Shown here: one piece after another, positions 17,649 through 45,542 of the stretch
How positions within the stretch are numbered: the stretch's first letter is position 1
Layout of the letters: every line of letters begins with the position of its first letter
Source: Actinacidiphila cocklensis
Lineage (GTDB): Bacteria; Actinomycetota; Actinomycetes; Streptomycetales; Streptomycetaceae
Assembly: GCF_907177275.1 (NCBI RefSeq)
Contig: NZ_CAJSLV010000048.1
Coordinates: forward strand, 207,476 to 271,475
DNA: 64,000 nucleotides
Reading direction: 5' to 3'
Position numbers and translations under genes: made by a program
The notes under the pieces: model-generated
What the model saw: only the letters and a program-made list of their open reading frames with translations
What the model was told of the DNA's origin: nothing
Database searches by the model: none

Positions 17649-20303
17649 TCAGCCCTGCTCGGGCAGGGCGCCCAGCTGGGCGGTGATCCGTTCGATGTCC
17701 GCCTCGGCCGCCGCCAGCCGTGCCCTGATGCCGGCCACGACCTTCTCCGGCGCCTTCGCCAGGAATGCGTCGTTGCCGAGCTTGCGGCCCGCGTCGGACT
17801 TCTCCTTCTCGGCCAGGCCCAGGTCCTTGGTGAGCCGCCTGCGCTCGGCGGCCACGTCGATGGCGCCGGACAGGTCCAGCTCGACGGTGGCGCCGGCCAC
17901 CGGCAGCGACGCGGTGGCGTGGAAGCCGTCGCCGGCCGGCTGCAGCCGCAGCAGCTGCCGGATGGCGTCCTCGTGCGCGGCCAGCAGGGTGCCGGCCAGG
18001 CCGAGCCTGGCCGGGACCTTCTGGCCGGGCTGCAGGCCCTGGTCGGCACGGAAGCGGCGGACCTCGGTGACGACCCGCTGGACCTCGGCGATCTCCGCCT
18101 CGGCCGCCGGGTCGCGGAAGCCGCCGTCCTTCGGCCAGTCCGCGATCACCAGCGACTCGCCGCCGGTGAGCGTCGTCCACAGCGTCTCGGTGACGAAGGG
18201 GACGACCGGGTGCAGCAGCCGCAGCAGGGTGTCCAGGACCTCGCCGAGGACCCGCTGCGAGACCCGCGCGCCCTCGCCGCCCTTGAGGAAGGTGGTCTTG
18301 GACAGCTCGACGTACCAGTCGAAGACCTCGTCCCACGCGAAGTGGAAGAGGCTGTCGGACAGCTTCGCGAACTGGTAGTCGTCGTAGAGGGCGTCGACCT
18401 CGGCGACGGTCCTGCCGAGCCGCGACAGGATCCACCGGTCGACCGCGGACAGCTGCTCCGCCGGCGGCAGTTCGCCCTCGACGGTGGCGCCGTTCATCAG
18501 CGCGAAGCGGGTGGCGTTCCAGATCTTGTTGGCGAAGTTGCGGGACGCCTGGACCCAGTCCTCGCCGATCGGCACGTCGATGCCCGGGTTGGCGCCGCGG
18601 GCCAGCGTGAAGCGGACCGCGTCGGAGCCGTAGGTGTCCATCCAGTCCAGCGGATTGACCGCGTTGCCGAAGGACTTGGACATCTTCTTGCCGAACTGGT
18701 CGCGGACCATGCCGTGCAGGGCGATGGTGTGGAAGGGCGGGGTGCCGTCCATCGCGTACAGGCCGAACATCATCATCCGGGCGACCCAGAAGAAGAGGAT
18801 GTCGTAGCCGGTGACCAGGACCGCGTTCGGGTAGAACTTCTCCAGCGCCGGGGTCTGCTCGGGCCAGCCCATGGTGGAGAAGGGCCAAAGGCCCGAGGAG
18901 AACCAGGTGTCCAGGACGTCGGAGTCCTGCGTCCAGCCCTCGCTGGGGGTCCCCCCGCCGGAGGTAGGGGGCGCCTCGTCGTCGGGTCCGACGCAGACCG
19001 TCTCGCCGTTCGGGCCGTACCAGACCGGGATGCGGTGGCCCCACCACAACTGCCGCGAGATGCACCAGTCGTGCAGGTTGTCGACCCAGTCGAAGTAGCG
19101 CTTCTCCATCTCCTGCGGGTGGATGGCGACCCGGCCGTCGCGGACCGCGTCGCCCGCGGCCTTGGCCAGCGGGCCGACCTTGACCCACCACTGCATGGAC
19201 AGCCGCGGCTCGATGGTCGTCTTGCAGCGCGAGCAGTGGCCGACCGAGTGGCGGTACGGGCGCTTCTCGGCGACGATCCGGCCGTCGGCGCGCAGCGCCG
19301 CGACGATCGCGGAGCGCGCTTCGAGCCGGTCGAGGCCCTGGAAGGGGCCGGAGACGGTGATGACGGCGTGCTCGTCCATGACCGTGATCGCCGGCAGATC
19401 GTGGCGGCGGCCGATCTCGAAGTCGTTCGGATCGTGCGCGGGCGTCACCTTGACCGCGCCGGTGCCGAACTCGGGGTCGACGTGGGTGTCGGCGACGACC
19501 GGGATCGAGCGGTCGGTCAGCGGCAGCCTGACGGTCCTGCCGACCAGGTGCCGGTAGCGCGGGTCGTCGGGGTGGACGGCGACCGCGGTGTCGCCGAGCA
19601 TCGTCTCGGCCCGGGTGGTGGCCACGACGATGCTGTCGTCACCGTCGCCGTAGCGCATTGAGACCAGCTCGCCGTCCTCCTCCTCGTACTCGACCTCGAT
19701 GTCGGAGATGGCGGTCAGGCAGCGCGGGCACCAGTTGATGATCCGCTCGGCGCGGTAGATCAGCTCGTCGTCGTAGAGCCGCTTGAAGATGGTCTGGACG
19801 GACTTCGACAGGCCCTCGTCCATCGTGAAGCGTTCGCGGGACCAGTCGACGCCGTCGCCGAGGCGGCGCATCTGGCCCGAGATCTGGCCGCCGGACTCGG
19901 CCTTCCACTGCCAGACGCGCTCGACGAACGCCTCGCGGCCGAGGTCGTGCCGGGACTTGCCCTCCTTGCCCAGTTCGCGCTCGACGACGTTCTGCGTGGC
20001 GATGCCGGCGTGGTCCATGCCGGGCTGCCACAGCGTCTCGTAGCCCTGCATGCGCTTGCGCCGGGTCAGCGCGTCGATCAGCGTGTGCTCGAAGGCGTGG
20101 CCCAGGTGCAGGCTGCCGGTGACGTTCGGCGGCGGGATGACGACGGCGAACGGCGGCTTGTCGCTCTTGGCGTGGGCCTCGAAGTAGCCGCGCTCTACCC
20201 AGCGCTCGTACAGCGGCCCCTCTACGTCGGCCGGCGCGTAGGTCGTCGGCAGTTCGGGGGCGCTGGTCGGCCCGTCGTGGGGGCGCTGAGTGTTGTCGGT
20301 CAC
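17649..20303 (-). CDS. valS: Valyl-tRNA synthetase
   Basis: An 884-residue class I synthetase. The HIGH-type motif is [20 protein letters not shown] near residues 56-75, and KMSKS is [10 protein letters not shown] near 585. The editing domain lies between, with [18 protein letters not shown]. The DALR-type anticodon domain and a C-terminal coiled-coil arm ([19 protein letters not shown]) follow. An oddity is the segment [17 protein letters not shown], where recalled homologues read PPTGEGWTQD. The extra residues are encoded by a G/C palindromic stretch at about 18942-18973 that looks like an intergenic mini-repeat inserted in frame. The function should be intact because the insertion is in a surface loop before DVLDTWF (inference). 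Confidence 0.96.
18942..18973 (-). repeat. Short palindromic repeat inserted inside valS
   Basis: On the minus strand a CCCCCT run, TACCTCC, then GGCGGGGGGACCCCC form overlapping inverted G/C runs encoding [10 protein letters not shown]. Similar palindromic motifs occur in intergenic DNA in this window (CTGGGGGTACCCCCAG at 45434-45449). It adds about seven to eight residues to ValRS without breaking the frame. Mobility is inferred from the resemblance and from the apparent absence in recalled homologues. Confidence 0.5.
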
Positions 20304-20422
20304 CCGGCGATTCTACGGTGGCGTGCCGGGCTGTTACGAACCAGTTGCTCCCCCGCGGTAAGCGCGGCGTAAAGGATCGGCGAAGATGGGGCAAGGCATC
20401 CACGGGAGGGGAACCCGAGCCC

Positions 20423-21394
20423 ATGAGCAACGACCAGCCGCCGCCGAACCCTTATGGCCAGCAGCCGTCCGATCCGTACGGGCAGCAACCGCAGCAGCCG
20501 CCCCAGCCGCCACCGGGCTACGGCTACCCGCAGCAACAGCCCGGGTACGGCTACCCGCAGCAGCAGCCGGGATACGGCCAGCCGCAGCCCGGGTACGGCC
20601 AGGTCCCACCGCAGCAGCCCGGCTACGGCCAGGTGCCGCCCCAGCAGCCCGGGTACGGCTACCCGCAGCAACAGCAGCAGCCGTACGGCTACGGCCAGCA
20701 GCCGCCGCAGGGCGGGAAGGGCAAGCGCACCGGGATCATCGTCGGCACGGTCGTCGCCCTCGCGGCGATCGGCGCCGGCGTCTTCTTCGTCGTGGGCAAG
20801 AGCGACGGCGGCCTGAAGGACGACGGCAAGAAGTACAAGCTGACCACGCCGGAGACCGTCGCGACGGACTACAAGCTCCAGGGCGACGACTCGGACTTCA
20901 GCGACACCGACGGCCTGGACAAGGACACCATGACCTTGCTGGCCGCCAACGGGATGACGAACGCGCAGAAGACCCAGGCGGGCTATCTGCAGGGCAGTGA
21001 CACCAGCGGCAGGGTGCTGTCCTTCGAGGGCGCGTACGGCACCGTCAAGGACCCGCAGAAGGTCGCCGACGCGATGATGAAGTCGCTGCGCGACGACCCG
21101 GACAAGGACTCCGACGGCACCAAGACCGAACTGATCGGCGACCCGCAGACGATGCACCCGGCGGGCGCGGACGACGCGGTGGTGCAGTGCCAGACCGCCA
21201 AGGTCACCGACTCCGAATCCGGCAAGGGCTACACCCTGTCGGTGTGCCTGTGGGCGGACTACAGCACCGTCGGCACCGTCGCGCCGCTGGACCTCAGCGT
21301 GCTGACCACCGGCAGCGGAACGGGCATGTCGGCGAAGGACACCGCCGACCTGCTGGCCAAGGTCCGCAAGGACACCCGGGTACTGGCGGGCTGA
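20423..21394 (+). CDS. Secreted/membrane protein with Q/P/G/Y-rich N-terminus, paralogue 1
   Basis: A 323-residue protein. Residues 1-95 are a low-complexity tract of [11 protein letters not shown]-type repeats. A single membrane span follows (about 105-127, [22 protein letters not shown]), then a 195-residue domain beginning [17 protein letters not shown], probably outside the cell, with two cysteines (VVQCQTAKV and [12 protein letters not shown]) that could form a disulphide. It lies downstream of valS on the opposite strand, as in other streptomycetes. The start is the ATG at 20423 with GGGAGGGG upstream; the neighbouring paralogue shares [15 protein letters not shown], supporting this start. 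Function unknown. Confidence 0.82.
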
Positions 21395-21403
21395 TCAGCC
21401 TTC

Positions 21404-21441
21404 CCCAGGGGGGCGGTTGCGGGCCGATCCGCCCCCCTGGG
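21404..21441 (+). terminator. Hairpin between the two paralogues
   Basis: Perfect 13-bp stem: arms CCCAGGGGGGCGG (21404-21416) and CCGCCCCCCTGGG (21429-21441) with a 12-base loop, starting 9 bases after the first paralogue's stop. It has no T-run, as is usual in Streptomyces. It probably terminates or attenuates transcription before paralogue 2. Confidence 0.75.
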
Positions 21442-21506
21442 TGAAGAGGACGTGCCACGTCCGCAAGGATGGGCCGACGATGTCAACGGAGGGGACCCTC
21501 GTTCCA

Positions 21507-22514
21507 ATGAGCAACAACCAGCCGCCGCCCAACCCTTACGGCCAGCAGCCGCCGAACCCGTACGGCCAGCAGCCCCCGCAGCAGCCCGGCGGCTACGGCC
21601 AGCCCCAGCCCGGTTACGGCTACCCGCAGCAGGGCCAGCCCGCGCAGCCGGCGTACGGCCAGCCTCCGCAGCAGCCCGGCTACGGCCAGCAGCAGCCCCA
21701 GCCGGGTTACGGCTACCCGCAGCAGGGCCAGCCCGGTCAGCCCGCGTACGGCCAGCAGCCGGCGTACGGCCAGGTGCCGCAGCAGCCCGGTTACGGCTAC
21801 GGCCAGCCGCCCGGCGCCCCGCAGGGCGGCGGCGGCAAGCGCACCGGGATCATCATCGGCGCCGTCGTGGCACTGGTGGCGGTCGGCGTCGGCGTCTTCT
21901 TCGTCGTGGGCAAGGACGACGGGGGCTCCGGCCCGAAGAACGACGGCAAGAAGTACAAGCTGACCACCCCGGCCACCGTCGCCACGGACTACAAGAAGTC
22001 CGACGACGCGGAATCCGACGACATGGCCTTCGACGACGACGACGTGAAGACGCTCACGTCGCTCGGCATGACGAACCCTCAGCGGGTCTCGGCGGGCTAC
22101 ATCAAGGGCTCGCAGACCACCGGCACGCTGCTGTCGTTCAGCGGCGCCTACGGTGACGTCAAGGACCCGAAGAAGGTCGCCGACGGCATGATGGCCGAGC
22201 TGCGCAAGGGCGCCACCACCGACGACAGCGACGACACCAAGACCGAACTGGTCGGTGACACGCAGACGTTGCACCCGGCCGGCGCCGAGGACGCGGTCGT
22301 GGAGTGCCAGACCGCCAAGGTCACCAACAAGGACGACACGTCCAAGGCGGTCACCTTCAGCATCTGCCTTTGGGCGGACTACAGCACGGTCGGCACGGTC
22401 ACGCCGCTCGACTTCGCCTCCCTGACCACCGGCAGCGGCACCAGCCTGTCGGCGAACGACACCGCCGACCTGCTCGTCAAGGTCCGCAAGGACACGCGGG
22501 TGCCGCTGGCGTAG
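21507..22514 (+). CDS. Secreted/membrane protein with Q/P/G/Y-rich N-terminus, paralogue 2
   Basis: A 335-residue tandem duplicate of the gene at 20423. It has the same plan: Q/P/G/Y-rich repeats (about 1-105, GYGYPQQGQPGQPAYG units), a membrane span ([25 protein letters not shown]), and a C-terminal domain with KYKLTTPATVATDYKKSD, AVVECQTAKV and [20 protein letters not shown]. The C-terminal domains align closely along their length, so the pair arose by duplication. The N-terminal repeats have diverged in number. The ATG at 21507 (GGAGGGG 12 bases upstream) is favoured over an in-frame ATG at 21480 because it matches paralogue 1. Function unknown. Confidence 0.82.
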   Translation: MSNNQPPPNPYGQQPPNPYGQQPPQQPGGYGQPQPGYGYPQQGQPAQPAYGQPPQQPGYGQQQPQPGYGYPQQGQPGQPAYGQQPAYGQVPQQPGYGYGQPPGAPQGGGGKRTGIIIGAVVALVAVGVGVFFVVGKDDGGSGPKNDGKKYKLTTPATVATDYKKSDDAESDDMAFDDDDVKTLTSLGMTNPQRVSAGYIKGSQTTGTLLSFSGAYGDVKDPKKVADGMMAELRKGATTDDSDDTKTELVGDTQTLHPAGAEDAVVECQTAKVTNKDDTSKAVTFSICLWADYSTVGTVTPLDFASLTTGSGTSLSANDTADLLVKVRKDTRVPLA

Positions 22515-22595: not shown

Positions 22596-22601
22596 GCTAG
22601 G
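22596..22601. repeat. Target-site duplication GCTAGG, left copy
   Basis: GCTAGG directly abuts the left end of the IS481-type element and matches the right copy at 23667-23672. It fits the NCTAGN target known for Bordetella IS481. Bases 22597-22599 provide the TAG stop of the transposase on the minus strand. Confidence 0.9.
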
Positions 22602-23550
22602 TGTACTGACCCGTGAGGTTGGGGACGCGGCTGGCGGGTGGTTGGCCTTTGAGTGCGGTGTGTCCGCGGTGGTGATTGTAGGTGTGGAGCCAGAGGAGGT
22701 ATGCCTCGCGTCGTTCGGTCTCGGTCCGGTATGGCTTGGCGTAGGCCCACTCGTCCAGCAGGGTCCGGTTGAACCGCTCGACCTTCCCGTTGGTCTGTGG
22801 CCGGTAGGGGCGGGTGCGCTTGTGAGTGATCCCGGCCGCTGCCAGGGTGTCGCGCCACAGGTGGGACTTGTAGCAGGCGCCGTTGTCGGTCAAGACGCGC
22901 TGGACGGTGATCCCGGCTTCGGCGAAGTAGGTGTGGGCGCGCTGCCAGAACCCGGCGGCGGTCTCTTTCCTCTCGTCGGTGAGGATCTCGCTGTAGGCCA
23001 GGCGGGAGTGGTCGTCGACGGCGTTGTGCAGGAAGCTCATCCCGGCCTTGGCCCGGTTCTTGCGGCCTGCCTGCCGGCCCAGGGCCCTGTGGCCGCCGCC
23101 GTCCGGGATGTTGCCGAGTTTCTTGATGTCGACGTGCACAAGGTCGCCGGGGGCGGCGTGCTCATAGCGCCGGATCACCTGGTTGGTGGCGCGGTCCAGG
23201 TGGGCCAGGCGGGCGAGGCCGAAGCGGGTCAGGACGCGGTGCACGGTGGCCGGGTTCAGCCCCAGCAGATAGGCGATACGGGCCGGTCCCCACCGGCGCA
23301 GGACACGGACCTTGATGATCCGCCGCTCGGTCCGGGTCGGCGTCCGGGTCGGGCTGTGGTGCGGGCGCGATGAGTGGTCGGACATCCCGGCCTCGCCGAG
23401 CTCACGGTAGCGGGACGCCCACCGGTGAGCTGTTGTGGGCGAGACCTGGAAGCGCTCAGCCGCGCGGCGCAGGGGCCAGCCGTCGTCCACGACGCAGCGG
23501 GCCAGACGCAGGCGACCAGTCTCGGTCAGGGGTGCATTACGGTGGGGCAT
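22597..23550 (-). CDS. IS481 family transposase
   Basis: A 317-residue DDE transposase starting MPHRNAPLTETGRLRLARCV at 23550. The N-terminal helix-turn-helix is about residues 28-52 (LRRAAERFQVSPTTAHRWAS), followed by a second HTH-like region (RWGPARIAYLLGLNPATVHRVL). Catalytic residues are Asp in LVHVDIKKLG, Asp in RVLTDNGACYKS and Glu in TNGKVERFNRTLL, with the PYRPQTNGKVERF signature of IS481/IS3 relatives. The last codon and the stop lie outside the element: the final Thr codon takes one base from the IS and two from the target duplication, and TAG comes wholly from the duplication. The frame is intact, so the element may be active. Confidence 0.95.
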   Translation of the reverse strand: MPHRNAPLTETGRLRLARCVVDDGWPLRRAAERFQVSPTTAHRWASRYRELGEAGMSDHSSRPHHSPTRTPTRTERRIIKVRVLRRWGPARIAYLLGLNPATVHRVLTRFGLARLAHLDRATNQVIRRYEHAAPGDLVHVDIKKLGNIPDGGGHRALGRQAGRKNRAKAGMSFLHNAVDDHSRLAYSEILTDERKETAAGFWQRAHTYFAEAGITVQRVLTDNGACYKSHLWRDTLAAAGITHKRTRPYRPQTNGKVERFNRTLLDEWAYAKPYRTETERREAYLLWLHTYNHHRGHTALKGQPPASRVPNLTGQYT

Positions 23551-23666
23551 GAGGGCCTTCTGATCGTTCGGTGGCGATGTCGCAATCCACACCGAACCCG
23601 GAAGGCCCTCACTCGTTCAAGATCCCCCAGCCGTGATCACTGTCACCAACCTCCATGGACAGAACA
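22602..23666 (-). mobile_element. IS481 family insertion sequence, complete (1065 bp)
   Basis: Bounded by 26-base imperfect terminal inverted repeats that begin TGT and end ACA (left 22602-22627, right 23641-23666; about 19 of 26 positions match, sharing GAGGTTGG) and by a 6-bp target duplication GCTAGG on each side. It holds one transposase gene reading leftward. The target NCTAGN and 6-bp duplication are the known habit of IS481. The insertion lies one base past the stop codon of clpX, leaving clpX intact but separating it from its downstream terminator. The undamaged frame and exact duplication suggest a fairly recent insertion. Confidence 0.93.
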
Positions 23667-45410: not shown

Positions 45411-45542
45411 GGGTGACCGCTTGTCAGGAGGCGCTGGGGGTACCCCCAGGCGAAGCCCCGGGGGCGGAACTGCGCGCCCCAGCACACCACCGGGGGAAGG
45501 TCCCGGGACCCGGGAGAGGGGCGGCCAGGGTGGGGTACCCCC

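Follow-up and report, generated by a model that had tools for sequence, protein, structure and literature searches.

How did the valyl-tRNA synthetase (ValRS) of this genome acquire a short Gly/Pro/Ser/Thr-rich stretch that its relatives do not share? The gene lies in the window, the 64,000-nt stretch of Actinacidiphila cocklensis DNA analysed here, and a first-pass annotation had proposed that a palindromic mini-element was inserted in frame within it. We find it very probable that a repeat interspersed through the genus was copied into a C-run of valS (a proline codon), a step that would have added 24 nt, or eight residues, and left the frame intact. The tiny repeat has the look of a selfish DNA unit that adds short pieces to essential proteins. 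The features concerned are as follows.

17649..20303, reverse strand: valS, encoding ValRS (884 aa), host of the insert; supported by the ORF, phmmer and tblastn relatives
18945..18968, reverse strand: 24-nt net insert, encoding PTSGGGTP (residues 446-453), defined against the two nearest relatives
18944..18971, reverse strand: full 28-nt repeat CCCCCTACCTCCGGCGGGGGGACCCCCA, of which 27 nt are identical to the korA copy in the same genome

An in-frame insert in valyl-tRNA synthetase

The encoded protein matches the T. thermophilus ValRS (1gax; phmmer E 1.1e-240). Relatives of valS were collected by tblastn, and 29 of the 34 other genus members were read at this locus. The two nearest over the valS region (genus genomes are labelled with G numbers) are G013, which reads DDEAPGEGW at 93% DNA identity, and G020, which reads DDETPGEGW at 92%; against both, the insert is a clean net gain of 24 nt, and relative to the most common streptomycete form (APTGEGW and similar) it amounts to 21 nt. 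The segment running from ISRQ(L/M)WWGH to D(V/T)LDTWFS spans 38 residues only here and 29–33 residues in all 80 named loci and all 29 genus relatives, so the insert is young and, among the genomes read, particular to this one. Aligning ValRS across the family, as the first-pass annotation had advised, located the insert residues in none of 109 other actinobacterial ValRS (80 named records and 29 genus relatives), and the claim of extra in-frame DNA is thereby confirmed as a 24-nt net insert.

ValRS residues 429-460 align with a cysteine-bearing stretch of the T. thermophilus enzyme. In a ColabFold model of ValRS (mean pLDDT 83), residues 438-457 are predicted without secondary structure and residues 449-453 fall below a pLDDT of 50, as do residues 464-466 and 544-547 outside the insert. 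The model fits a tolerated loop at the insertion site, short of proving it.

When searched at up to 3 mismatches, a whole 33-mer matched the window copy alone, and the element was therefore re-bounded to 28 nt, CCCCC-TACCTCCGGCGGGGGGA-CCCCCA, with the plan C-run, short loop, G-run and second C-run. The G/C runs described by the first-pass annotation are thus present, though as a palindrome the window copy is imperfect: a search for inverted repeats of at least 8 nt found none in it, and it folds no better than shuffled sequences, either as RNA (z 0.75) or as DNA (z 0.92 and 1.53, one per strand). A genus variant, CCCCCTGCCTTCGGCGGGGGG, folds as DNA into a perfect 9-bp stem (z -1.70).

Copies in the same genome and empty sites in relatives

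The 27-nt core of the repeat, CCCCTACCTCCGGCGGGGGGACCCCCA, occurs at one other exact place in the genome and at four places in total at up to 3 mismatches, and the reversed pattern occurs at none, a difference that is not chance. This second exact copy lies inside korA (2-oxoacid:acceptor oxidoreductase alpha; POR_N and PFOR_II by Pfam), in tandem with a near-identical second unit at a 24-nt period (2 x 24 nt); its reading frame matches that of the ValRS copy. The korA gene of G013 is 48 nt shorter, and the repeat is present in none of 29 relatives, the linkers of some of which vary in length. A diverged in-frame copy, LDPPPSYAGGTPNS, is found in nuoN, where all 29 relatives read are exactly 24 nt shorter. 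A shorter pattern adds one weak match (C68), which the GC3 rule (third-position GC together with an open frame) classes as non-coding. Counting genome copies therefore turned up further examples, also within genes: an exact copy with a near-identical tandem partner in korA and a diverged one in nuoN.

We then compared orthologues for valS and five other genes. Four genes exceed the nearest relative by exactly one or two units of 24 nt (valS +24, nuoN +24, pgk +24 and korA +48). The pgk site is filled in G012; the 94%-identical G001 is exactly 24 nt shorter, and the copy is likewise missing from the 28 further relatives read. An inner sequence resembling TACCTCCGGC is absent from the empty sites of valS, korA, nuoN and pgk. 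The further proposal that an essential gene had absorbed a small mobile repeat is supported by these copies elsewhere and by the comparison, in four genes, of sites with and without the repeat. The valS and korA sites, which hold exact copies of one variant, are both empty in G013, pointing to copying within the lineage. Such clean empty sites make the insertion mechanism and its cost testable, with the valS, nuoN and pgk pairs sharing 92-94% local DNA identity.

The remaining two genes are less regular. Linker length in the HpcH-type gene ranges across relatives from 57 to 81 nt; copies are intact in G013 and G026, three relatives (G006, G009 and G031) have the length of an intact copy with degenerate sequence, and G029 has that length with unlike sequence. 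In ppc of G010 the linker is variable, and the gain of 27 nt over the closest relative is not cleanly 24.

The first-pass annotation had likened the insert to intergenic Streptomyces mini-repeats. A related repeat with a CTTCG loop (often gcgcagttccgCCCCCAGAGCTTCGCCTGGGGGTACCCCCAgcgcc) is abundant in this genome and shares the plan of C-run, loop, G-run and C-run, but differs in its non-coding sites: in a 670-kb sample made up of contigs already known to carry copies, the GC3 rule puts 19 of 19 CTTCG-loop places outside coding frames (one at the sample's very edge), whereas the window-type repeat is coding at 3 of 3 loci. The intergenic family that is abundant here is related to the window's repeat but distinct from it in type. 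At window positions 45435-45454, and on C47 and C23, gcgcagttccgCCCCCAGAGCTTCGCCTGGGGGTACCCCCAgcgcc is an abundant intergenic composite, apparently a related hairpin that sits in or beside a longer repeat starting gcgcagttcc.

Host genes, reading frame and orientation

A genus-wide search with TACCTCCGGCGGGGGGACCCCCA, allowing 3 mismatches, gave 61 places spread over 24 of the 35 genomes, where the reversed pattern gave 3; single genomes have 0-9 close copies, and a 25-nt exact copy is also found in G023. All 61 were read. Merging two repeats with identical context leaves 59 distinct places, 22 of them coding by the GC3 rule. In-frame copies in recognisable genes are found at at least 25 loci, which with one frame-breaking copy account for 28 of the 59 places when tandem units are taken separately. 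Genes carry fewer copies (28/59) than random insertion predicts at an assumed coding fraction of 0.87.

The count of 25 rests on the GC3 rule, Pfam, homology and a set of exclusions. Two places were dropped from the GC3-coding set, one in G003 (no C-runs, taken as chance, and otherwise the sole copy in the Arg-rich frame) and one in G018 (a low-complexity ORF with no Pfam match there). Loci L134, L148, L197, L206, L144 and L145 (aroB) and L196 (queA) were added on Pfam or homology despite missing the GC3 rule. We excluded L129/L140 (ahead of an apparent NuoA start), L187, L147, L136 and L133 as probable leaders or doubtful cases, and L205, at the RsmB N-terminus, where the left C-run is absent. 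All 20 of the first Pfam-scanned proteins match families, and aroB (two genomes) and queA came from later checks. Further scans took in 10 ORFs and then 60 ORFs (both orientations of 20 remaining loci), of which 5 of the 60 matched anything; L151, L185, L188 and L210, which are weak or atypical matches, stood outside the Pfam scans. Besides valS, korA and nuoN, the hosts by Pfam are the following.

PGK; PEP carboxylase (ppc); 3-dehydroquinate synthase (aroB, two genomes)
Queuosine synthesis (QueA family); FAD-linked oxidase; FGGY kinase; FAA hydrolase (two genomes)
Aldehyde dehydrogenase; ribonucleotide reductase; GGDEF-EAL; tRNA_edit; DUF3097
ATPase with two ABC domains (read as ABC-F); oligopeptide ABC ATPase; Tricorn
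HpcH/HpaI (two genomes); acetyltransferase/CoA-ligase fusion; SNO glutaminase; CCG/FAD protein

For tRNA_edit, DUF3097 and SNO the family match lies downstream of the copy only, so the copy could be a leader, SNO most of all. Three sites are common to two genomes: the HpcH-type gene (G013 and G026), the FAH gene (G002 and G019) and aroB (G031 and G008). The repeat accounts for odd PTSGGGTPS and LPLPSAGGPP stretches in enzymes, which could be mistaken for assembly errors or functional motifs.

Copies in genes are biased in both strand and frame. At the 25 in-frame loci, the strand on which the C-run comes first is coding in 20 and the opposite strand in 5 (p 0.004); counting two-genome sites once gives 18 versus 4 (p 0.004), and the wider Pfam scanning changed the counts from 20 versus 3 to 20 versus 5. 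Among the 20 sense-strand copies, the frame that reads TSGGGTPS-like occurs in 13 and the one that reads LPLPSAGGPP-like in 7, and the third, Arg-rich frame (YLRRGDPQ) is never used, a distribution with a probability of 0.0003 under equal frame use, or 0.001 without the three downstream-only loci. We interpret the frame bias as the result of selection acting on the peptide that is encoded. For the orientation bias, the cause may be strand-biased insertion, or avoidance of the Shine-Dalgarno-like GGAGG that the opposite orientation carries.

The frame-breaking copy (L207, G008 C1:1666721-1666743) lies in an AP_endonuc_2 gene, where the family match ends at the copy and the rest of the conserved sequence is read in a different frame. 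This copy seems to have broken its gene; the gain is thus not always a multiple of 3, and the in-frame state appears to be maintained at least partly by selection.

Two further loci stand out. G010 holds 9 of the 61 close copies (L135 and L191-L198), each of them assigned to a recognisable gene through GC3, Pfam or homology (one may lie in a leader), in what looks like a recent burst. L183 (G022 C5:119733-119779) carries tandem copies with the same 24-nt period as korA, within the oligopeptide ABC ATPase gene of the opposite strand.

Possible routes of spread and comparison with known elements

Spread within a genome would proceed by copying and insertion at C-runs, as suggested by the two exact copies of one variant, both at sites where the nearest relative has no copy. 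The copies are probably passengers, which would survive where a Gly/Pro/Ser/Thr-rich loop linker is harmless, with frame-breaking inserts mostly lost. Insertion might involve a single-strand hairpin or a template switch at C/G runs and need no dedicated transposase. Stalled or slipped replication forks may be where the copying occurs, as hinted by targets that are C-runs, a tandem period of 24 nt and the hairpin that one variant forms. We put forward only tentatively the combined picture of a 24-bp streptomycete unit that spreads in this transposase-free way and seeds eight-residue Gly/Pro linkers into essential enzymes. If true, protein insertions could arise by a route that replication itself drives.

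A dedicated transposase acting in trans (RAYT/IS200-like HUH or other) could instead move the repeat as a miniature transposon, with valS as one target. Near-identical copies at unrelated sites within genomes are consistent with such an enzyme, and G010, the genome richest in close copies (9/61), leads in Y1_Tnp matches as well, with 18 that include fragments. The distributions nevertheless disagree: the repeat is present in 24 of 35 genomes, and the REP/RAYT-type Y1 transposase (PF01797) is matched in only 7 of 35, with 0 matches in the genome of the window, where this profile turned up no mobilising gene for the repeat. A conserved GTAG tag is also absent, and any target-site duplication is unresolvable, since C-runs make up both target and insert; the C-run ends likewise blur this feature of a MITE. 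A degenerate 23-mer had no exact match among IMG/VR viral contigs, and the 33-mer of one variant had no match among plasmids, the latter a weak test in that a low-complexity filter may mask a G/C-run query. On balance we consider a trans-acting transposase a possible but less likely route.

It is improbable that the insert was retained for its usefulness, be it through structure at the mRNA or DNA level or through a linker in the protein. The frame bias and the weaker orientation bias among genic copies would agree with such a role, as would the sites common to two genomes (the HpcH-type gene, the FAH gene and aroB). Against it, only one genome of those read is filled at each of valS, korA, nuoN and pgk, no relationship links the host genes, three relatives have an HpcH-gene copy that looks decayed, and the RNA fold at valS is not unusual. 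Local slippage in a G/C-rich Pro/Gly-coding stretch, with any likeness elsewhere being compositional, would fit the C- and G-runs beside the segment and the existence of a tandem 24-nt duplication, but it is very improbable indeed, being contradicted by an inner sequence common to the copies (27 nt shared exactly with korA and 25 nt with G023, and 61 places versus 3 reversed) and missing, in its TACCTCCGGC-like form, at the empty sites of all four genes.

A genus repeat copied into valS, as preferred here, has partial parallels. Rickettsia palindromic elements (RPEs) are described in PMC2229807 as palindromes of 105-146 bp, inserted in frame in conserved genes and also intergenic. The first-pass annotation had drawn this analogy, which holds for in-frame insertion in conserved protein genes and fails for size: the gain here is 24 nt (a 28-nt repeat), G/C-rich and in a streptomycete genus, about one-fifth of a classic RPE. 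As described in PMC3733652, intragenic REPs tagged with GTAG or CGTC are palindromes of 20-40 bp, some of them in ORFs including those of tRNA synthetases; more than half of the inserts are dimers or groups, and the set includes RPE-4 and RPE-6 of R. conorii. Our repeat falls within this REP size range, but the conserved GTAG/CGTC end tag is absent (GTAG sits inside the repeat, on the reverse strand, in TACC variants and is gone in TGCC variants), as is a Y1 transposase match in this genome. In its behaviour the repeat resembles RPEs and intragenic REPs; we assign it to neither, because the RPE length, the REP tag and the Y1 transposase all differ or are lacking.

In-frame palindromic inserts are thus already known from Rickettsia and, as REPs, from other bacteria; here the outcome recurs in a streptomycete genus, with a far smaller unit and in a window genome where the usual REP transposase is not seen. 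The main text of PMC3733652 contains neither the word Streptomyces nor the word Actinobacteria, and PMC4681348 mentions REPs for E. coli. Among the papers listed, titles and abstract openings, with subscription journals largely outside, yielded no actinobacterial or Streptomyces report, which is weak evidence of novelty. The intrastrand triplex motif TM_ECO, given in PMC4666352 as CCCTCNCCC-GGGNGAGGG-GGGNGAGGG with 9-nt blocks and tied to local instability, likewise has three G/C-rich blocks on one strand, but the order here is C-G-C with blocks of 5-6 and, compared by eye, the pattern is not matched.

The neighbourhood of valS has features of its own. Two adjacent similar ORFs at window positions 20318-22514, with Gln/Pro/Gly-rich N-termini followed by a hydrophobic segment, form an apparent tandem duplication beside valS. 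An ORF at 22597-23592 on the reverse strand resembles, by eye, an IS481-type integrase/transposase.
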